This document shows positions 26,249 to 34,615 of a DNA stretch of 64,000 nucleotides, piece by piece; position 1 is the stretch's first letter, and each line of letters starts with the position of its first letter. Made by a program: the position numbers and the translations under genes. Source of the stretch: Actinospica acidithermotolerans (lineage in GTDB: Bacteria; Actinomycetota; Actinomycetes; Streptomycetales; Catenulisporaceae); assembly GCF_018139625.1 (NCBI RefSeq), contig NZ_JAGSOH010000017.1:1-64000 (forward strand), in the 5' to 3' direction. Under the pieces are notes generated by a model that saw nothing but the letters and a program-made list of their open reading frames with translations, searched no databases and was not told the DNA's origin.

Positions 26249-26695
26249 GCCCGGATCAGCCAGCCAGTGCGAGAGCGAGCGGGAGGACGGCGGGTGCGCC
26301 GGCCCGGCGCAGCAGCCGGGCGGCGACACACTTCACCGGATAGATGTGCAGCGCCTTCAGGTGTGCGGTCATGTCCGGACGAGCCTGCCAGTGCGAGGGC
26401 GAGCGGGAGGACGGCGGGTGCGCCGGCCCGGCGTAGCAGCCGGGCGGCGAGACTTCACCGGATAGATGTGCGGCGCCTTCAGGTGTGCGGTCATGTCCGG
26501 ACGAGCCTGCCAGTGCGAGGGCGAGCGGGAGGACGGCGGGTGCGCCGGCCCGGCGTAGCAGCCGGGCGGCGAGACTTCACCGGATAGATGTGCGGCGCCT
26601 TCAGGTGTGCGGTCATGCCCGGATCAGCCTGCCAGTGCGAGGGCGAGCGGGAGGACGGCGGGGGCGCCGGCCCGGCGTAGCAGCCGGGCGGCGAC
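26206..26695. repeat. 122-bp tandem array spanning the recQ-MOSC junction
   Basis: Four units start at 26206 (124 bp), 26330, 26452 and 26574. Each contains 43 nt of the MOSC 5' end, a 7-nt spacer and 72 nt of the recQ-like 3' end. The true MOSC start is in the first unit and the true recQ stop in the last. Units 2 and 3 share changes (GTCCGGACGAG for GCCCGGATCAG) that remove the recQ stop codon, so the copies are not an exact assembly duplicate. Confidence 0.95.
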
Positions 26696-28900
26696 GGTCA
26701 TGGTCCAGCCGGAGTCGACGAAGTCGTCCACCAGCAGCACCGGACCGGGGCATTCGGCGAGCCGGCCGCGCAGCTCGGGGTCGAGGTCGAAGGCCTCGTG
26801 TACGGCGCGCAGCCGCCAGGCGCTGTTGCTCGGGCCGGCGTGCGCGTCCTCGCGGACGCGGTGTACGGAGCCCGCGATAGGCAGCTTGCCGATCTCGGAG
26901 ACGCCCTCGGCCAGCGAGCTCAACAGCCGCGGCCGGGTGCGCGACGCGATGGTCACGATGCCGACCGGACGGCCCACGCCGCTCCAGCCGGGTCCGCCGG
27001 ACGAGGCGGCCGCCGCAGCTGCTCCCGAGGCCCCCGGCGAACCCGCCGCCCGCGCTCTCGCCGATCCGGGTGCGCCCGCCCCCGGGGCCGCCGGCCCGTC
27101 GCCCGGACCCGCGCCGCCGGACGGGTCCGTCGCCCACTCCTTGAGCACGTTGACGATCGCGCCGAGCAGTTGCGGCTCGACCGGCCGGTCCGGCGCTCCG
27201 GTGCCGAGCAGCTCGCGCAGCGCCGCGCCCCAGCCCAGGTCCGTCAGCCGCGCCAGGGCCCGGCCCTCGGCGGCCAGCTCGCCGGCCGGGATCTTGCCCT
27301 TCAGCTCGACGCCGACCGACGGCATCCCGCTCGGCCACTGCCGCCGCGGCTCGATCGACACCCAGGCCCGCTTCGCGTGCGAGCCGGCCGCCGCCACGAC
27401 GCCCCGCGAGACCTTCGCCTCCAGCCTGCGGCCGGTGCAGTTGTCGCAGCGCCCGCACGGGGCCGCCTCGGTGTCGTCGAGCTGGCGGCGGAGGAACTCC
27501 ATCCGGCAGCCGTCGGTCTGCGCGTACTCGAGCATCGCCTGCTGCTCCCGCTCACGCGCGGCGGTGATCCGCGCATAGCGCTCGGCGTCGTAGAACCAGG
27601 GCCGGCCGGTGCCGATCCAGCCGCCCTGCACGCGCTTGACCGCGCCGTCCGCGTCCAGCACCTTCAGCAGCAGCTCCAGCCGCGAGCGCTTGAGGTCGAC
27701 CAGCGGTTCGAGGGCCATCGTGGACAGCGGCTTCGGCGCCTCGCCCAGCGCGCCGAGGACGCGCTCGACGGTGCCCTGCGGCGGGAAGGCGAGCGAGGTG
27801 AAGTACTTCCAGATCTCCTTGTCCTCCGCGCCCGGCAGCAGCACCACCTCGGCCCGCTCGACGCCGCGCCCGGCCCGGCCGACCTGCTGGTAGTACGCGA
27901 TCGGGGAGGAGGGCGCGCCCAGGTGGACGACGAAGCCGAGATCCGGCTTGTCGAAGCCCATGCCCAGCGCGGAGGTCGCGACCAGCGCCTTGATCTTGTT
28001 CTCCAGCAGGGCCTGCTCGGCCTGCCGCCGGTCCTCGTCCTCGGTGCGCCCTGAGTACGCGGCGACCGCGTAGCCGCGCGAGCGCAGGAAATCCGCCGTC
28101 TCCGAGGCCGCCGAGACCGTGAGCGTGTAGATGATCCCCGAACCCGGTAGCTCGCCCAGCTGCTCGGCGAGCCAGGCCAGCCGGCTCGCGCTGTCCGGCA
28201 GGCGAAGCACCGACAGATGCAGCGACTCGCGGTCCAGCGGTCCGCGCAGCACGAGGGTCGACTCGCCGGTGCCGAGCTGCTCGGCCACGTCCCGCGTCAC
28301 CCGCGCGTTCGCCGTCGCCGTGGTCGCCAGCACCGGCAGGCCGGGGGCGAGCGAGGCGATCAGCTCGCGCAGCCGCCGGTAGTCGGGCCGGAAGTCGTGC
28401 CCCCAGTCGGAGATCGAGTGCGCCTCGTCGACGACCAGCAGGCCGACGCTCGCGGCGAGCCGGGGCAGCACCCCGTCCCGGAAGCCGGGGTTGTTCAGCC
28501 GCTCCGGCGAGATCAGCAGCACGTCCACCGAGCCCTCGGCGATCCGCGCCTGGATCTCCTCCCACTCGGGCAGGTTCGCGGAGTTGATCGTGCGGGCGCT
28601 GATCCCCGCGCGCCCGGCGGCCTCGACCTGGTTGCGCATCAGCGCGAGCAGCGGCGAGACGATCACCGTCGGGCCGGCGCCGCGCGCCCGCAGCAGCGCC
28701 GTGGCCACGAAGTAGACCGCCGACTTGCCCCAGCCCGTCCGCTGCACGACCAGCGCCCGCCGCCCCTCGACGGCCAGCGCGCGGATCGCAGCCCACTGAT
28801 CCTCGCGCAGCCGCGCCGACTCCCCGGCGAGGCGGCGGAGCACGGCCTCGGCCTCGTCACGGGTCGGTGCGCCGGTCGCGGCGGACGGTGATTCGCTCAT
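26624..28900 (-). CDS. RecQ-type DNA helicase with C-terminal phosphoribosyltransferase-like domain
   Basis: 758 aa. Helicase motifs: LREDQWAAI (motif 0), VQRTGWGKSAVYFVAT (Walker A), LLVVDEAHSISDWGHDFRPDY (Walker B, in two parts here VVDEAH and SDWGHDFRP), ATTATANARV (III) and QQVGRAGRG (VI). The zinc-binding RecQ-Ct cysteines are present (CRME, then CGRCDNC). After about residue 600 there is a Gly/Ala-rich linker, then VLLVDDFVDSGWTMTVAARLL, a PRPP-binding-type motif of a PRTase fold. Such fusions are known in actinobacteria but their function is not settled. The 3' end has been amplified in the 122-bp array. Confidence 0.93.
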   Translation of the reverse strand: MSESPSAATGAPTRDEAEAVLRRLAGESARLREDQWAAIRALAVEGRRALVVQRTGWGKSAVYFVATALLRARGAGPTVIVSPLLALMRNQVEAAGRAGISARTINSANLPEWEEIQARIAEGSVDVLLISPERLNNPGFRDGVLPRLAASVGLLVVDEAHSISDWGHDFRPDYRRLRELIASLAPGLPVLATTATANARVTRDVAEQLGTGESTLVLRGPLDRESLHLSVLRLPDSASRLAWLAEQLGELPGSGIIYTLTVSAASETADFLRSRGYAVAAYSGRTEDEDRRQAEQALLENKIKALVATSALGMGFDKPDLGFVVHLGAPSSPIAYYQQVGRAGRGVERAEVVLLPGAEDKEIWKYFTSLAFPPQGTVERVLGALGEAPKPLSTMALEPLVDLKRSRLELLLKVLDADGAVKRVQGGWIGTGRPWFYDAERYARITAAREREQQAMLEYAQTDGCRMEFLRRQLDDTEAAPCGRCDNCTGRRLEAKVSRGVVAAAGSHAKRAWVSIEPRRQWPSGMPSVGVELKGKIPAGELAAEGRALARLTDLGWGAALRELLGTGAPDRPVEPQLLGAIVNVLKEWATDPSGGAGPGDGPAAPGAGAPGSARARAAGSPGASGAAAAAASSGGPGWSGVGRPVGIVTIASRTRPRLLSSLAEGVSEIGKLPIAGSVHRVREDAHAGPSNSAWRLRAVHEAFDLDPELRGRLAECPGPVLLVDDFVDSGWTMTVAARLLRRAGAPAVLPLALALAG

Positions 28901-28972: not shown

Positions 28973-29515
28973 TCACGCTGAGACCGGCACTCCGAGGCCG
29001 TCCAGCACGACGGCGTTCGGCAGCTCGGCGAGCACGGCCCCGGGCAGCCAGAGCTTCGAGCCGCGGATGCCCGAGCCGACGACGACGTGCGGCGCCTCGG
29101 CGACGGCGCGGTCGACCAGCACCGGCCAGTCCGCGGGCAGCCCGATCGGCGTAATTCCGCCGTACTCCATGCCGGTGAGACCCACCGCGTCGTCCATCGG
29201 GGCGAACGACGCCTTCCGCGCGCCGAGGTGCTTGCGTGCGAGACCGTTGACGTCGGCCCGGCTGGTCGCGAGCACCATGCACGCCGCGTAGAAAACCTCG
29301 CCCGCCTTCTTGGCAGCGAGTACGACGCAGTTGGCGGATTCGTCAAGGGCGACACCGTATTCAACGCAGAACGCCGCGGTGTCGGCGAGCGTCGGATCGA
29401 TCTGTGCCACCTCGACGCGGTCGGCGAGGCCGAGCTTGGCCACGGCGTCGAGGGTTGATTCCGCCAGGAGTTCGGGCCGGTCGAGCGCGGGTTCGTGTGT
29501 GAGCTTCCCAGACAT
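28973..29515 (-). CDS. YbaK/EbsC-family aminoacyl-tRNA deacylase
   Basis: 180 aa. It matches the YbaK/ProX editing-domain family that hydrolyses mischarged tRNA such as Cys- or Ala-tRNA(Pro). Seen: EYGVALDESANCVVLAAKKAGE, here in parts, the conserved Lys (LARKHLGARKASFAP) and GLTGMEYGGITPIGLP, the C-terminal glycine motif. The length is usual. It is followed by the recQ-like gene on the same strand, 72 nt on. Confidence 0.92.
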   Translation of the reverse strand: MSGKLTHEPALDRPELLAESTLDAVAKLGLADRVEVAQIDPTLADTAAFCVEYGVALDESANCVVLAAKKAGEVFYAACMVLATSRADVNGLARKHLGARKASFAPMDDAVGLTGMEYGGITPIGLPADWPVLVDRAVAEAPHVVVGSGIRGSKLWLPGAVLAELPNAVVLDGLGVPVSA

Positions 29516-29672
29516 GGCGTCCAGCTTGCCACGGCTTTACCCCGGCCGTGGTGTGATGAGCAGAGCGTGAAGTCCGACGGATTTCCGTGATCCGGCTGGT
29601 CCCGGACCGTCTCCGTTAGGGAAGGACGGCGAATCCGCGCGATACGCGTGCGAGGCGATGGGAGTGTGCGGC

Positions 29673-31262
29673 GTGAGCCTACAGATGGATACGGCGCGGG
29701 TTCGCGCCGCGCGGTCGGGCGATCCGGAGGCGCTGGACGCGGTGGCGACCGAGTATCTGCCGCTCGTGTACAACATCGTGCGCCGCTCATTGCGGCACAG
29801 CGCGGACGTGGACGACGTCGTGCAGGAGACGATGCTCCAGCTCGTACGCAACGTCGGTTCGCTGCGCGACCCGGAGCGGCTGCGCCCGTGGCTGGTCGCC
29901 ATCACGGTCAATCAGATACGCGACCATCAGCGCATGGCCGTCAGGGCCCCGAGTTCGTTCGACGACCGGCTCGACATACCCGATCCGGGCGGCGAGTTCG
30001 TCGACTACACGCTCATGCAGCTCGACGTGTCCATGCAGCGCCGTGAGACGCAGCAGGCAGTGCAGTGGCTCGATCCGGATCACCGCGAGCTGCTGGCGCT
30101 GTGGTGGCTGGAGGTGTCCGGGCATCTGACCCGGCCCGAACTCGCGGAGGCGCTCGGCGCCGACTCGCACAACGTGGCCGTGCGGGTGAGCCGGATGAAG
30201 GAGCAGCTCGACGCCTCGCGGCGCATCGTGCGCGTCCTCGGTCTCAGCCCGCGATGCCCCCATCTGGACGACGCCGCTTTCGACTGGGACGGCGAGACGT
30301 CCTCCGTATGGCGTAAACGCTTCGCGCGTCATGTCCGTGAATGCCCGACTTGCGATGCCGCGACCCGAGATCTGATCGCGCCAGAGCGGCTGCTCGCCGG
30401 CCTCGCGCTGCTGCCGATTCCCGCCGCGTACGCCGCGTTCCGCGCCACATCGCTGTTCATAGAGGTCGCTCCGCCCAAGCCCCGCCCGCGCCACGGAGCG
30501 CATCGCGGCGGCAAGGTGGCGGGGATGACCGCGGCCAAGCCGATCGGCATCGCCTTCGCCGCGATAGCGGTCGTCGCGGCCGGCGCCGTCGCCGTGGACA
30601 CGCTGGGCGCGAAGCAGAACACCGTCGCGATAACGACGACGGCCACCGGTTCGGCGATCGCCTCGAGCCCGCAGGCGTCGCCGAGTGCGCTGACGATCCC
30701 GACCGTCTCCGCGTCGCCGAGCAAGTCCGCGACCTCCGCCAAGCCCACTACGGCGCCGACCACGGCCCGAACCACCGCCGTCCAGCAGACCACGGCTGCG
30801 GCCGTCGTCGTCAGGACGTCGAGTGCGAGTTCTAATTCGGCCGCTCAGGCGGTCCTCGACGTGATCAACAACGCGCGCAAGGCGGCCGGCCTCAAGCCGT
30901 ACACGATGGCCGGCGGCCTCGTGAGGAGCGCCACGGCGCACAACACGGTGATGGAGGGCGGCTGCGGGCTCTCGCACCAGTGCCCCGGCGAGGCCGCGTT
31001 CGGCGACCGGGAGACGGCGGCCGGCGTGCACTGGAGCGCGGCGGGCGAGAACATCGGCGAGGGCGGCCCGGAGAGCGACACCCAGTCCGCGATCACCGAC
31101 ATGGCCGTGGGGTTGACGAACAGCATGCTCGCCGAGAAGGCGCCGGACGACGGCCACCGGCTCAACATCCTGAGCAGCACGTACACCGAGGTCGGCATCG
31201 CCGTGACCCGGGATAGCTCCGGCACGGTCTGGATGACGCAGGACTTCGCCGCCGTCTCGTGA
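29673..31262 (+). CDS. ECF-like sigma factor fused to a zinc-finger anti-sigma-like segment, a TM helix and a CAP domain
   Basis: 529 aa, four parts in one chain. Sigma region 2 lies at about residues 10-85 (EYLPLVYNIVRRSLRHSADV, DVVQETMLQLVRN) and region 4 at about 130-180 (LDPDHRELLALWWLEVSGHL, LAEALGADSHNVAVRVSRMKEQ). A ZAS-like HX3CX2C motif follows at 220-227 (HVRECPTC). One TM helix is at ~290-308 (GIAFAAIAVVAAGAVAV), then a Thr/Ala/Ser-rich linker. A CAP/SCP domain fills ~393-527 (VLDVINNARKAAGLKPYTM, HNTVMEGGCGLSHQC, HWSAAGENIGEGG, DDGHRLNIL). I chose GTG 29673 because GGGAG lies 8 nt upstream. The 3' end is tandemly amplified. How the factor could act while membrane-tethered is unknown. 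Confidence 0.85.
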   Translation: MSLQMDTARVRAARSGDPEALDAVATEYLPLVYNIVRRSLRHSADVDDVVQETMLQLVRNVGSLRDPERLRPWLVAITVNQIRDHQRMAVRAPSSFDDRLDIPDPGGEFVDYTLMQLDVSMQRRETQQAVQWLDPDHRELLALWWLEVSGHLTRPELAEALGADSHNVAVRVSRMKEQLDASRRIVRVLGLSPRCPHLDDAAFDWDGETSSVWRKRFARHVRECPTCDAATRDLIAPERLLAGLALLPIPAAYAAFRATSLFIEVAPPKPRPRHGAHRGGKVAGMTAAKPIGIAFAAIAVVAAGAVAVDTLGAKQNTVAITTTATGSAIASSPQASPSALTIPTVSASPSKSATSAKPTTAPTTARTTAVQQTTAAAVVVRTSSASSNSAAQAVLDVINNARKAAGLKPYTMAGGLVRSATAHNTVMEGGCGLSHQCPGEAAFGDRETAAGVHWSAAGENIGEGGPESDTQSAITDMAVGLTNSMLAEKAPDDGHRLNILSSTYTEVGIAVTRDSSGTVWMTQDFAAVS

Positions 31263-31667
31263 CGCGGTGGCCGTCCGGTGCTCAGCCGGGAGACCGTGAC
31301 CCGGGATAGTTCCGGCACGGTCTGGATGACGCAGGACTTCGCCGCCGTCTCGTGACGCGGTGGCCGTCCGGTGCTCAGCCGGGAGACCGTGACCCGGGAT
31401 AGTTCCGGCACGGTCTGGATGACGCAGGACTTCGCCGCCGTCTCGTGACGCGGTGGCCGTCCGGTGCTCAGCCGGGAGACCGTGACCCGGGATAGTTCCG
31501 GCACGGTCTGGATGACGCAGGACTTCGCCGCCGTCTCGTGACGCGGTGGCCGTCCGGTGCTCAGCCGGGAGACCGTGACCCGGGATAGTTCCGGCACGGT
31601 CTGGATGACGCAGGACTTCGCCGCCGTCTCGTGACGCGGTGGCCGTCCGGTGCTCAGCCGGGAGACC
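31203..31667. repeat. 93-bp tandem array at the sigma-CAP / TPR gene junction
   Basis: Five units start at 31203, 31296, 31389, 31482 and 31575. Each holds the last 20 codons (60 nt, including TGA) of the sigma-CAP gene plus 33 nt that end with the 3' end of the convergent TPR gene. Units 2-5 are practically identical; unit 1, inside the real gene, differs by a single C/T in GATAGCTCC. The 93-bp length is a multiple of three, and the reverse strand reads as a 31-aa repeat without being a likely gene. Confidence 0.96.
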
Positions 31668-33431: not shown

Positions 33432-33820
33432 CGATGTCCTCCCGGCCTCTCGCGCGGCGTCGCCCCCTAGGGGAGAACGTACCGGTCAAAGCCCGCGCGA
33501 TGGTGAGTGGTTTCCTCAGGTGTTCTCCGAATCGTGACCTTACGTTGATCTTCGCGTCGGCCCCGCGCAACGGTGCGTCCGCCGGATCGATTGCGTCTTC
33601 GTGCCCTGCTATGTCGGGAATTGTAGGGACGGCCGGGCAATTCGCTCAATGCTAAACGGCCGGAAAACCCTTGTCGGCCCGCACGCAACACCCGCAAGCT
33701 GAGCAACGGCCGCACCGATTGCCCACACACGTCGGTGCGGTTCAACCGGCGTGCCGGGCGGCCCCCCGTTCCCGCCGCCCGGCCGCGTCCCTTTACACCC
33801 ACGAGAGGGAGAGCAAGGAC
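33432..33820. other. Divergent promoter region
   Basis: 389 bp between the leftward regulator and the rightward G1 peptidase. I see no gene. A short inverted repeat CCGGCCG... occurs, and the AAGGAC site just before 33821 serves the peptidase. No clear -35/-10 pair stands out. Confidence 0.4.
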
Positions 33821-34615
33821 ATGTCCCACAGGTCTCACGTCCGCATGATCGCGCTCGGCTCGGCCGCCGCCACGGCCCTGTTCGCCGCCCCCGCCGCGTT
33901 CGCCGCGGACGGAACCGTATCCGCGCCGCTGCAGGTGACCGCCGCCCAGGCGCACCAGGAGAGCCACGGCCTGCACGCGCTGGCCCACCGCAGCAGCACC
34001 ACCGTCTCCTCGAGCAACTGGTCCGGCTACGCCGCGACCGGCGGCAGCGGCGCCTTCACCCAGGTCTCCGCCTCGTGGACCCAGCCCGCCGTCACCTGCG
34101 GGTCGAAGACCACGTACTCGTCGTACTGGGTGGGCCTCGACGGATACAGCAACTCCGCGCTGGAGCAGACCGGCACCGAGGCCGACTGCATCCGCGGCAA
34201 GGCGACCTACGGCGCCTGGTGGGAGGTGCTCCCGGCCTCGGAGAGCGCGTACTCGGTGACGGTGAAGGCGGGCGACGCGCTGAGCGCCAGCGTCGTGGAC
34301 AACGGCAACGGCACCTTCACGATGACGCTGTCCGACTCGACCGAGGGCTGGACGAAGACGACCACCGCCAACGGCTCCTCCGGCTACCAGGACTCCTCCG
34401 CCGAGGTCATCGCCGAGGCGACCGAGGTCAACGGCAGGATCGCGAACCTCTCCGACTTCGGCACCGTGACCTTCACGAACGCCGAGGCCGACAACACCTC
34501 GCTCGGCAGCTACTCGCCGACCGAGATCGTGATGGCCGGCACCTCGGACACGAAGGCGCAGCCGGGCTCCATCTCCGGGGGCACCTTCAGTGACACCTGG
34601 GAGAACTACAGCTGA
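33821..34615 (+). CDS. Secreted G1-family (glutamic) peptidase
   Basis: 264 aa. Signal peptide at residues 1-29 (MIALGSAAATALFAAPAAFA, cut near AFA-AD). The mature part matches eqolisin/G1 peptidases: SSNWSGYAATGG, SASWTQPAVTC, SYWVGLDGYSN, LEQTGTEADC and YGAWWEVLP with Glu135 as the likely catalytic Glu of the AWxE motif. These enzymes work at acid pH. The gene has no adjacent partner, and a long perfect terminator follows 80 nt downstream. The assignment rests on these motifs only. Confidence 0.88.
   Translation: MSHRSHVRMIALGSAAATALFAAPAAFAADGTVSAPLQVTAAQAHQESHGLHALAHRSSTTVSSSNWSGYAATGGSGAFTQVSASWTQPAVTCGSKTTYSSYWVGLDGYSNSALEQTGTEADCIRGKATYGAWWEVLPASESAYSVTVKAGDALSASVVDNGNGTFTMTLSDSTEGWTKTTTANGSSGYQDSSAEVIAEATEVNGRIANLSDFGTVTFTNAEADNTSLGSYSPTEIVMAGTSDTKAQPGSISGGTFSDTWENYS

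Follow-up and report, generated by a model that had tools for sequence, protein, structure and literature searches.

A probable membrane-tethered ECF sigma factor with an outer CAP domain and a candidate promoter of its own in Actinospica

The gene at positions 29673 to 31262 (+ strand) of the window, a 64,000-nucleotide stretch of DNA from Actinospica acidithermotolerans, probably encodes an autoregulated ECF sigma factor that is tethered to the membrane. Sequence features suggest a protein of the fused sigma-ZAS-TM kind with an outer CAP domain, which would place a complete signal path in a single polypeptide. The overall kind of protein is already known. The analysis provides a large and hardly studied family of one-chain sigma factors with a predicted promoter, a predicted set of targets, and a testable residue-to-base code. 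It also places the poorly understood CAP domains of bacteria in a regulatory context.

Architecture of the sigma-finger-TM-CAP protein

The intact ORF begins with a GTG codon at position 29673, which is preceded by the sequence GGGAG located about 8 nucleotides in the 5ˊ direction. An alternative in-frame ATG at position 29658 would yield 534 rather than 529 amino acids. As the original prediction had stated, sigma factor regions, an HX3CX2C finger, a single membrane helix, and a CAP domain are all found in one chain of 529 residues, based on matches to Pfam and NCBIfam models, hydropathy, and an AlphaFold2 model.

Sigma region 2 (29748 to 29936, + strand; residues 26 to 88) matches the Pfam model PF04542 (Sigma70_r2) with an E value of 1.9e-15. 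The NCBIfam model TIGR02937 for ECF members of the sigma70 family matches residues 19 to 179 (E value 1e-22), and because this match extends so far, sigma region 4 is judged to be present as well. None of the Pfam models for region 4 matches the protein. Region 4 and its recognition helix (30075 to 30239, + strand; residues ~135 to 189) are delineated by the TIGR02937 match up to residue 179, by helical folding in the AlphaFold2 model, with a long helix spanning residues 165 to 189, and by covariation, wherein residues 166, 168, 169, and 173 track bases of the −35 element described below. Structure searches with Foldseek yielded sigmaE/RseA, SigW/RsiW, AlgU, and CnrH, which are sigma factors from complexes with anti-sigma factors. 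Both regions expected of an ECF sigma factor are therefore represented by the TIGR02937 and Sigma70_r2 matches and by these ECF folds. In the AlphaFold2 model, built on a 46-row alignment, pLDDT values exceed 90 over most of the two sigma regions and the finger, but its pTM is only 0.38, and thus it does not give the placement of these parts relative to each other.

The ZAS-like finger (30255 to 30353, + strand) has the form C195...H220-x3-C224-x2-C227, with 24 residues separating C195 and H220. This arrangement corresponds to the (H/C)-xn-H-x3-C-x2-C zinc-ligand pattern of ZAS domains. All four residues are invariant across 46 CAP-bearing members of the family, and the pattern C-x15-40-H-x3-C-x2-C occurs in 86 of the 86 members examined. 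The Pfam model zf-HC2 does not match the 529-residue protein, and a profile of the finger recovered just two PDB chains, both weakly. Both come from anti-sigma factors. One is DdvA (8rlz, E value 0.18) and the other is chain B of 3hug (E value 0.54), labelled ‘probable conserved membrane protein’ and known as the anti-SigL factor RslA.

The protein has a single strong hydrophobic stretch (30540 to 30608, + strand; residues ~290 to 312), with a mean Kyte-Doolittle value of 2.37. Because this single membrane helix comes after a basic segment, the CAP domain is predicted to reside outside the cell. The finger and the helix both lie C-terminal to the sigma part of an actinobacterial protein, which is the arrangement that characterizes fused sigma-ZAS-TM proteins with their one or two membrane helices. 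A linker rich in Ser, Thr, and Ala follows (30609 to 30830, + strand; residues ~313 to 386), and it is predicted to be disordered, with pLDDT values below 50 over residues 274 to 385.

The outer CAP/SCP domain (30855 to 31247, + strand; residues ~395 to 525, or ~390 to 526 in its wider delimitation) matches PF00188 with an E value of 1.9e-9 and is modelled with pLDDT values above 93. Foldseek matches are to SCP-domain structures, including 4ifa and 4h0a, and a match to the YkwD-like model TIGR02909 of NCBIfam falls under the cut-off of that model. Of the pocket residues, H435 and E459 do not vary among the 46 CAP members, whereas H495 is present in 40 and lost in six. Membership in the CAP superfamily is therefore indicated by the Pfam match, by the predicted fold, and by the His and Glu residues of the pocket.

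A family with a universal finger and variable outer domains

The whole architecture is retained at 56–57% identity in two further genomes of the genus Actinospica, indicating that it is the product of neither chance nor an assembly or frameshift fusion, and the latter explanation is ruled out. In one of these two genomes, the CAP-sigma protein is the same as that of a locus named Actinospica durhamensis (L009 and L017). The architecture is also present in Streptacidiphilus, Amycolatopsis, Lentzea, and Streptomyces. At least 418 relatives were detected by scanning a genome collection, and the best 80 of them were read and joined with the members from the genus to make a comparison set of 86 proteins.

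This search of the actinobacteria for the same architecture, which had been suggested together with the original prediction, revealed a common design, with 47 CAP members among the 86 proteins examined. The expectation that the CAP partner is unusual was not borne out. CAP domains, which occur in two subtypes, are an ordinary outer partner inside this family and the commonest of the outer domains sampled. A glycosidase core is found in 21 of the 86 members, and other outer ends include four that are propeller-like, three with one unassigned domain, one beta helix, and one transglycosylase-like domain recognized by eye without a Pfam match. The remaining nine members are either cut or have an unassigned outer domain. 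The finger is therefore universal in this set and the outer domain is variable. A tree built from the sigma-finger part places the gene together with its CAP orthologues from Actinospica (96). For the most part, the outer domains track the sigma clades, with a few swaps.

Two paralogues in the same genome share the sigma-finger-TM part and have different outer domains. The paralogue on contig C373 carries a glycosyl hydrolase catalytic core (PF11790) outside, and the outer domain of the one on contig C188 is unassigned and possibly propeller-like. Contig C11 of this genome encodes a sigma-like protein that is more distantly related (L005, 1324 to 2799, − strand). It has a finger, a membrane helix, and a tail rich in Thr and Ser, and other sigma-like matches are located near its gene.

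A promoter-like site upstream of the gene

The upstream regions of 71 of the 86 members share a site of the form TTTCTGTTATC-N16/17-GTCTCC. Scores above 10 bits for a gapped PWM, which was trained on these same 86 upstream regions with 330 nucleotides examined for each, are reached in 71 of the 86 compared to 1.7% of random 330-nucleotide pieces from the same loci. The copy at positions 29582 to 29614 (+ strand), which is the predicted autoregulatory promoter of the gene, has a −35 element TTTCCGTGATC, a 16-nucleotide spacer, and a −10 element GTCTCC. Its PWM score of 26.1 is the highest within the window, and it is the sole match to the strict pattern in its 7.9-Mb genome.

About 15 of the 86 members carry no good site within 330 nucleotides. 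Contig edges or start calls account for some of these, and the absence appears to be real in the rest, of which the S. griseus group is an example. The −10 element has drifted in Actinospica relatives (ATCTG). Members of the CAP type-A clade, to which the gene belongs, have −35 elements with GTGAC or GTGAT, and the variants in other clades are GTTATC, GTTGTC, GTAATC, and GTTTTY.

The pattern TTTCTGTGAC-N16..19-GTCTC has exactly one match per genome in 10 of the 10 whole genomes with a CAP type-A member, and every match is located at the sigma gene, compared to zero matches for a reversed control. For the pattern TGTTATC-N15..18-TCTCC, there are 72 matches in 54 genomes versus two control matches.

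Several other candidate sites were set aside. The classical ECF motif GGAAC...CGT is present in just two of the 86 upstream regions. Matches to TGTGAC-N-GTCTCC in the same genome (L110, L122, and L132) are not accompanied by a CAP gene and were taken as chance occurrences. An identical TTTCCGTGACTC-N-GTCT site was also observed near position 1500 in two Actinospica loci from two genomes (L211 and L212), where an ORF filter detected no clear ORF start downstream. This site is probably coding sequence.

Covariation between the recognition helix and the −35 element

Two residues of the recognition helix, positioned one turn apart, vary in concert with bases of the −35 element. Residue 173 corresponds to base 3 in 72 of 73 cases (Q with T in 52, S, A, or G with G in 14, H with A in five, and R with C in one), with a single exception. 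Residue 169 corresponds to base 5, also in 72 of 73 cases with one exception, such that A or S accompanies T in 59 and T accompanies C in 13. With the sequences reduced to 38 clusters, these two pairs rank first and second by z-score among variable columns, and two residues located elsewhere than in the recognition helix, 114 and 77, score high as well. The covariation is partly phylogenetic, in that entire clades have the same residue together with the same base, and the numbers are inflated by this ancestry. However, common descent does not account for why this helix in particular stands out.

Individual proteins provide additional examples. In the CAP type-A clade, A169 and a T at base 5 (GTGATC) are unique to the 529-residue protein, and R173 pairs with GCCATC at L034. 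In the protein at L088, a type-B sigma part is joined to a CAP type-A outer domain, and the site upstream of its gene is of type B, suggesting that the promoter follows the sigma part. Given the covariation between the recognition helix and the −35 bases upstream of the gene, the sigma part appears to be functional, and it is probably the sigma factor itself that reads the upstream site.

Predicted targets in relatives

Approximately 41 of the 72 TGTTATC-type matches precede sigma genes of the family. The other 31 are distributed among exported proteins (19), BTAD regulators (five), and locations with nothing clear downstream (seven). Exported-protein genes with a site encode sigma-less TM-CAP proteins in Streptomyces-type genomes (L172 and L195), a sigma-less TM-glycosidase (L169), alginate-lyase-type enzymes, GH16 and DUF1996 proteins, a papain-type peptidase, an LRR protein, and a beta-helix-like secreted family, which was named by eye and whose sole Pfam match is PATR. 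The polysaccharide-active proteins among these predicted targets suggest a connection with the cell surface or with polymers outside the cell. Nearly invariant copies of the site also occur before BTAD-type regulator genes in Paractinoplanes and its relatives (L189 to L192 and L154), where they represent a possible link from such sigma factors to another regulator.

Some predicted targets resemble the outer half of the 529-residue protein. In two Streptacidiphilus genomes (L125 and L204), a type-A site precedes a gene for a protein of 307–308 amino acids that lacks a sigma part. Its membrane helix is joined through a linker to a CAP domain closely similar to that of the 529-residue protein (E value ~1e-59). 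On plasmids of Streptomyces angustmyceticus and Kitasatospora, the sigma-CAP gene adjoins a stand-alone CAP gene, and each of the two genes has one site. A third plasmid, an unannotated record from Streptomyces BHT-5-2, has two divergent sites between its sigma-CAP and stand-alone CAP genes. A protein search of three Actinospica genomes revealed no stand-alone relative of the CAP domain, and in these genomes the sigma factor may therefore act mainly on its own gene. In the genome of the 29673 to 31262 gene, this is perhaps the only target.

Proposed mechanism and alternatives

In the mechanism that we favour, the finger would act as a ZAS-type brake that keeps regions 2 and 4 of the sigma factor from working. 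Some event outside the cell, at the CAP domain or at the wall, might then lead to cleavage near or in the membrane, whereupon the freed sigma factor would bind RNA polymerase and transcribe from TTTCYGTGAYC-N16/17-GTCTCC. It would amplify its own gene and, in Streptacidiphilus, Streptomyces, and Kitasatospora, the gene for the sigma-free TM-CAP twin. Such positive feedback would presumably generate more outer CAP protein, serving as a sensor, an effector, or both. We infer that sigma release is proteolytic, as has been proposed for ECF48, ECF52, and ECF53 proteins with fused anti-sigma factors (PMC8999054, PMC5826349). A more elaborate possibility, which we put forward tentatively, is a closed loop whose essential targets are the gene itself and the sigma-free, membrane-anchored twin of its outer domain. 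The system might then operate as a self-amplifying surface-protein switch in which the twin is an effector or a decoy, and the two-residue −35 code might insulate coexisting paralogues.

The outer CAP domain might instead be the working product, for example by binding the wall or lipids, with the sigma part serving as built-in control of its expression. We regard this as a possibility that merits consideration, although not as the leading one. It concerns the role of the CAP domain and is compatible with the favoured mechanism. The predicted targets, which comprise the gene and TM-CAP or TM-glycosidase proteins without a sigma part, agree with such a role, as do the invariant H435 and E459 and the presence of H495 in 40 of 46 members. 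However, six CAP members lack H495, and conservation of this kind would also be expected for a sensor domain.

Release of sigma activity might also occur by a conformational change without proteolysis, such that a ligand of the CAP domain loosens the finger and the sigma factor stays at the membrane. Conformational release has been described for some ECF groups whose C terminus is extended, including ECF41 and ECF238 (PMC8999054). However, the long disordered stretch at residues 274 to 385 makes a relay through the membrane difficult, and IutY, the sole characterized case of a fused anti-sigma factor, functions by proteolysis (PMC8999054). We therefore consider this route unlikely. It also seems unlikely that another regulator binds the conserved upstream site while the sigma factor has different targets, since the −35 bases track residues 169 and 173 of the family’s own recognition helix, even in the single-member variants A169/GTGATC and R173/GCCATC. 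In favour of this reading, a single genome can hold several members of the family with shared sites (L139, L144, L197, and L199).

Relation to known systems

The original prediction that sigma-ZAS-TM fusions are a known kind of protein agrees with the descriptions of ECF48, ECF52, and ECF53, among which SCO4117 has been studied. This ECF52 protein from Streptomyces coelicolor likewise joins a sigma factor, a zinc finger, a membrane helix, a low-complexity linker, and an outer domain in one actinobacterial chain, and both autoregulation and proteolytic release have been proposed for it (PMC5826349). It differs in having an outer carbohydrate-binding module (smart00776) in place of a CAP domain, and in its proposed site CSGYN-17 bp-SRHA in place of TTTCTGTTATC-N16/17-GTCTCC (PMC5826349). 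Pfam searches detect no carbohydrate-binding module, the outer domain that would mark an ECF52 member, in the CAP-bearing protein. ECF48 and ECF53 proteins are similar in their fused ZAS-like finger, their one to two membrane helices, and their occurrence in Actinobacteria (PMC8999054). Glycosidase domains have been noted in ECF52 and ECF53 (PMC10766802), and these glycosyl hydrolase outer domains resemble that of the C373 paralogue. The papers on the ECF48 and ECF53 groups that were examined make no mention of a CAP outer domain.

IutY of Pseudomonas putida (ECF243) also fuses a sigma factor to a membrane-bound anti-sigma factor subject to regulated proteolysis (PMC8999054). However, it belongs to another ECF group, lacks a CAP domain, and functions in Gram-negative cell-surface signalling during iron starvation. 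YkwD-type secreted CAP/SCP proteins share the Pfam CAP domain and the fold of 4ifa and 4h0a, whereas the CAP domain here forms the outer end of a sigma factor. Little is understood of what CAP domains do at the molecular level in bacteria. A literature search recovered no paper on CAP-domain ECF factors, the promoter-like site, the two-residue code, or the sigma-free twin, although the main ECF classification papers were outside this search and an earlier motif prediction is possible.

Genomic neighbourhood

Five tandem copies of a 93-bp unit (31201 to 31667; TRF, 99% matches) overlap the 3ˊ end of the gene. The unit consists of the last ~20 codons, the stop codon, and the 3ˊ flank of the CAP-sigma gene, and the array is located between convergent genes. 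Relative to the first copy, the other four have one base change in common, and no such array is present at L010 and L017 in relatives. Each unit includes GTGACC-N18-GTCTGG, but the total PWM score is negative and these sequences were dropped as candidates for extra promoters. The array is either a recent expansion or an assembly effect, and is not part of the mechanism.

The divergent neighbour of the gene (28973 to 29515, − strand) encodes a protein with a tRNA-editing domain, and from comparison with L010 and L017 it appears to be conserved beside the CAP sigma gene within the genus. A secreted Peptidase_A4 protein of the acid peptidase family is encoded close to the sigma gene (33671 to 34615, + strand). 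On the other side, a RecQ-like helicase (26624 to 28900, − strand) carries an extra C-terminal stretch that weakly matches phosphoribosyltransferases.
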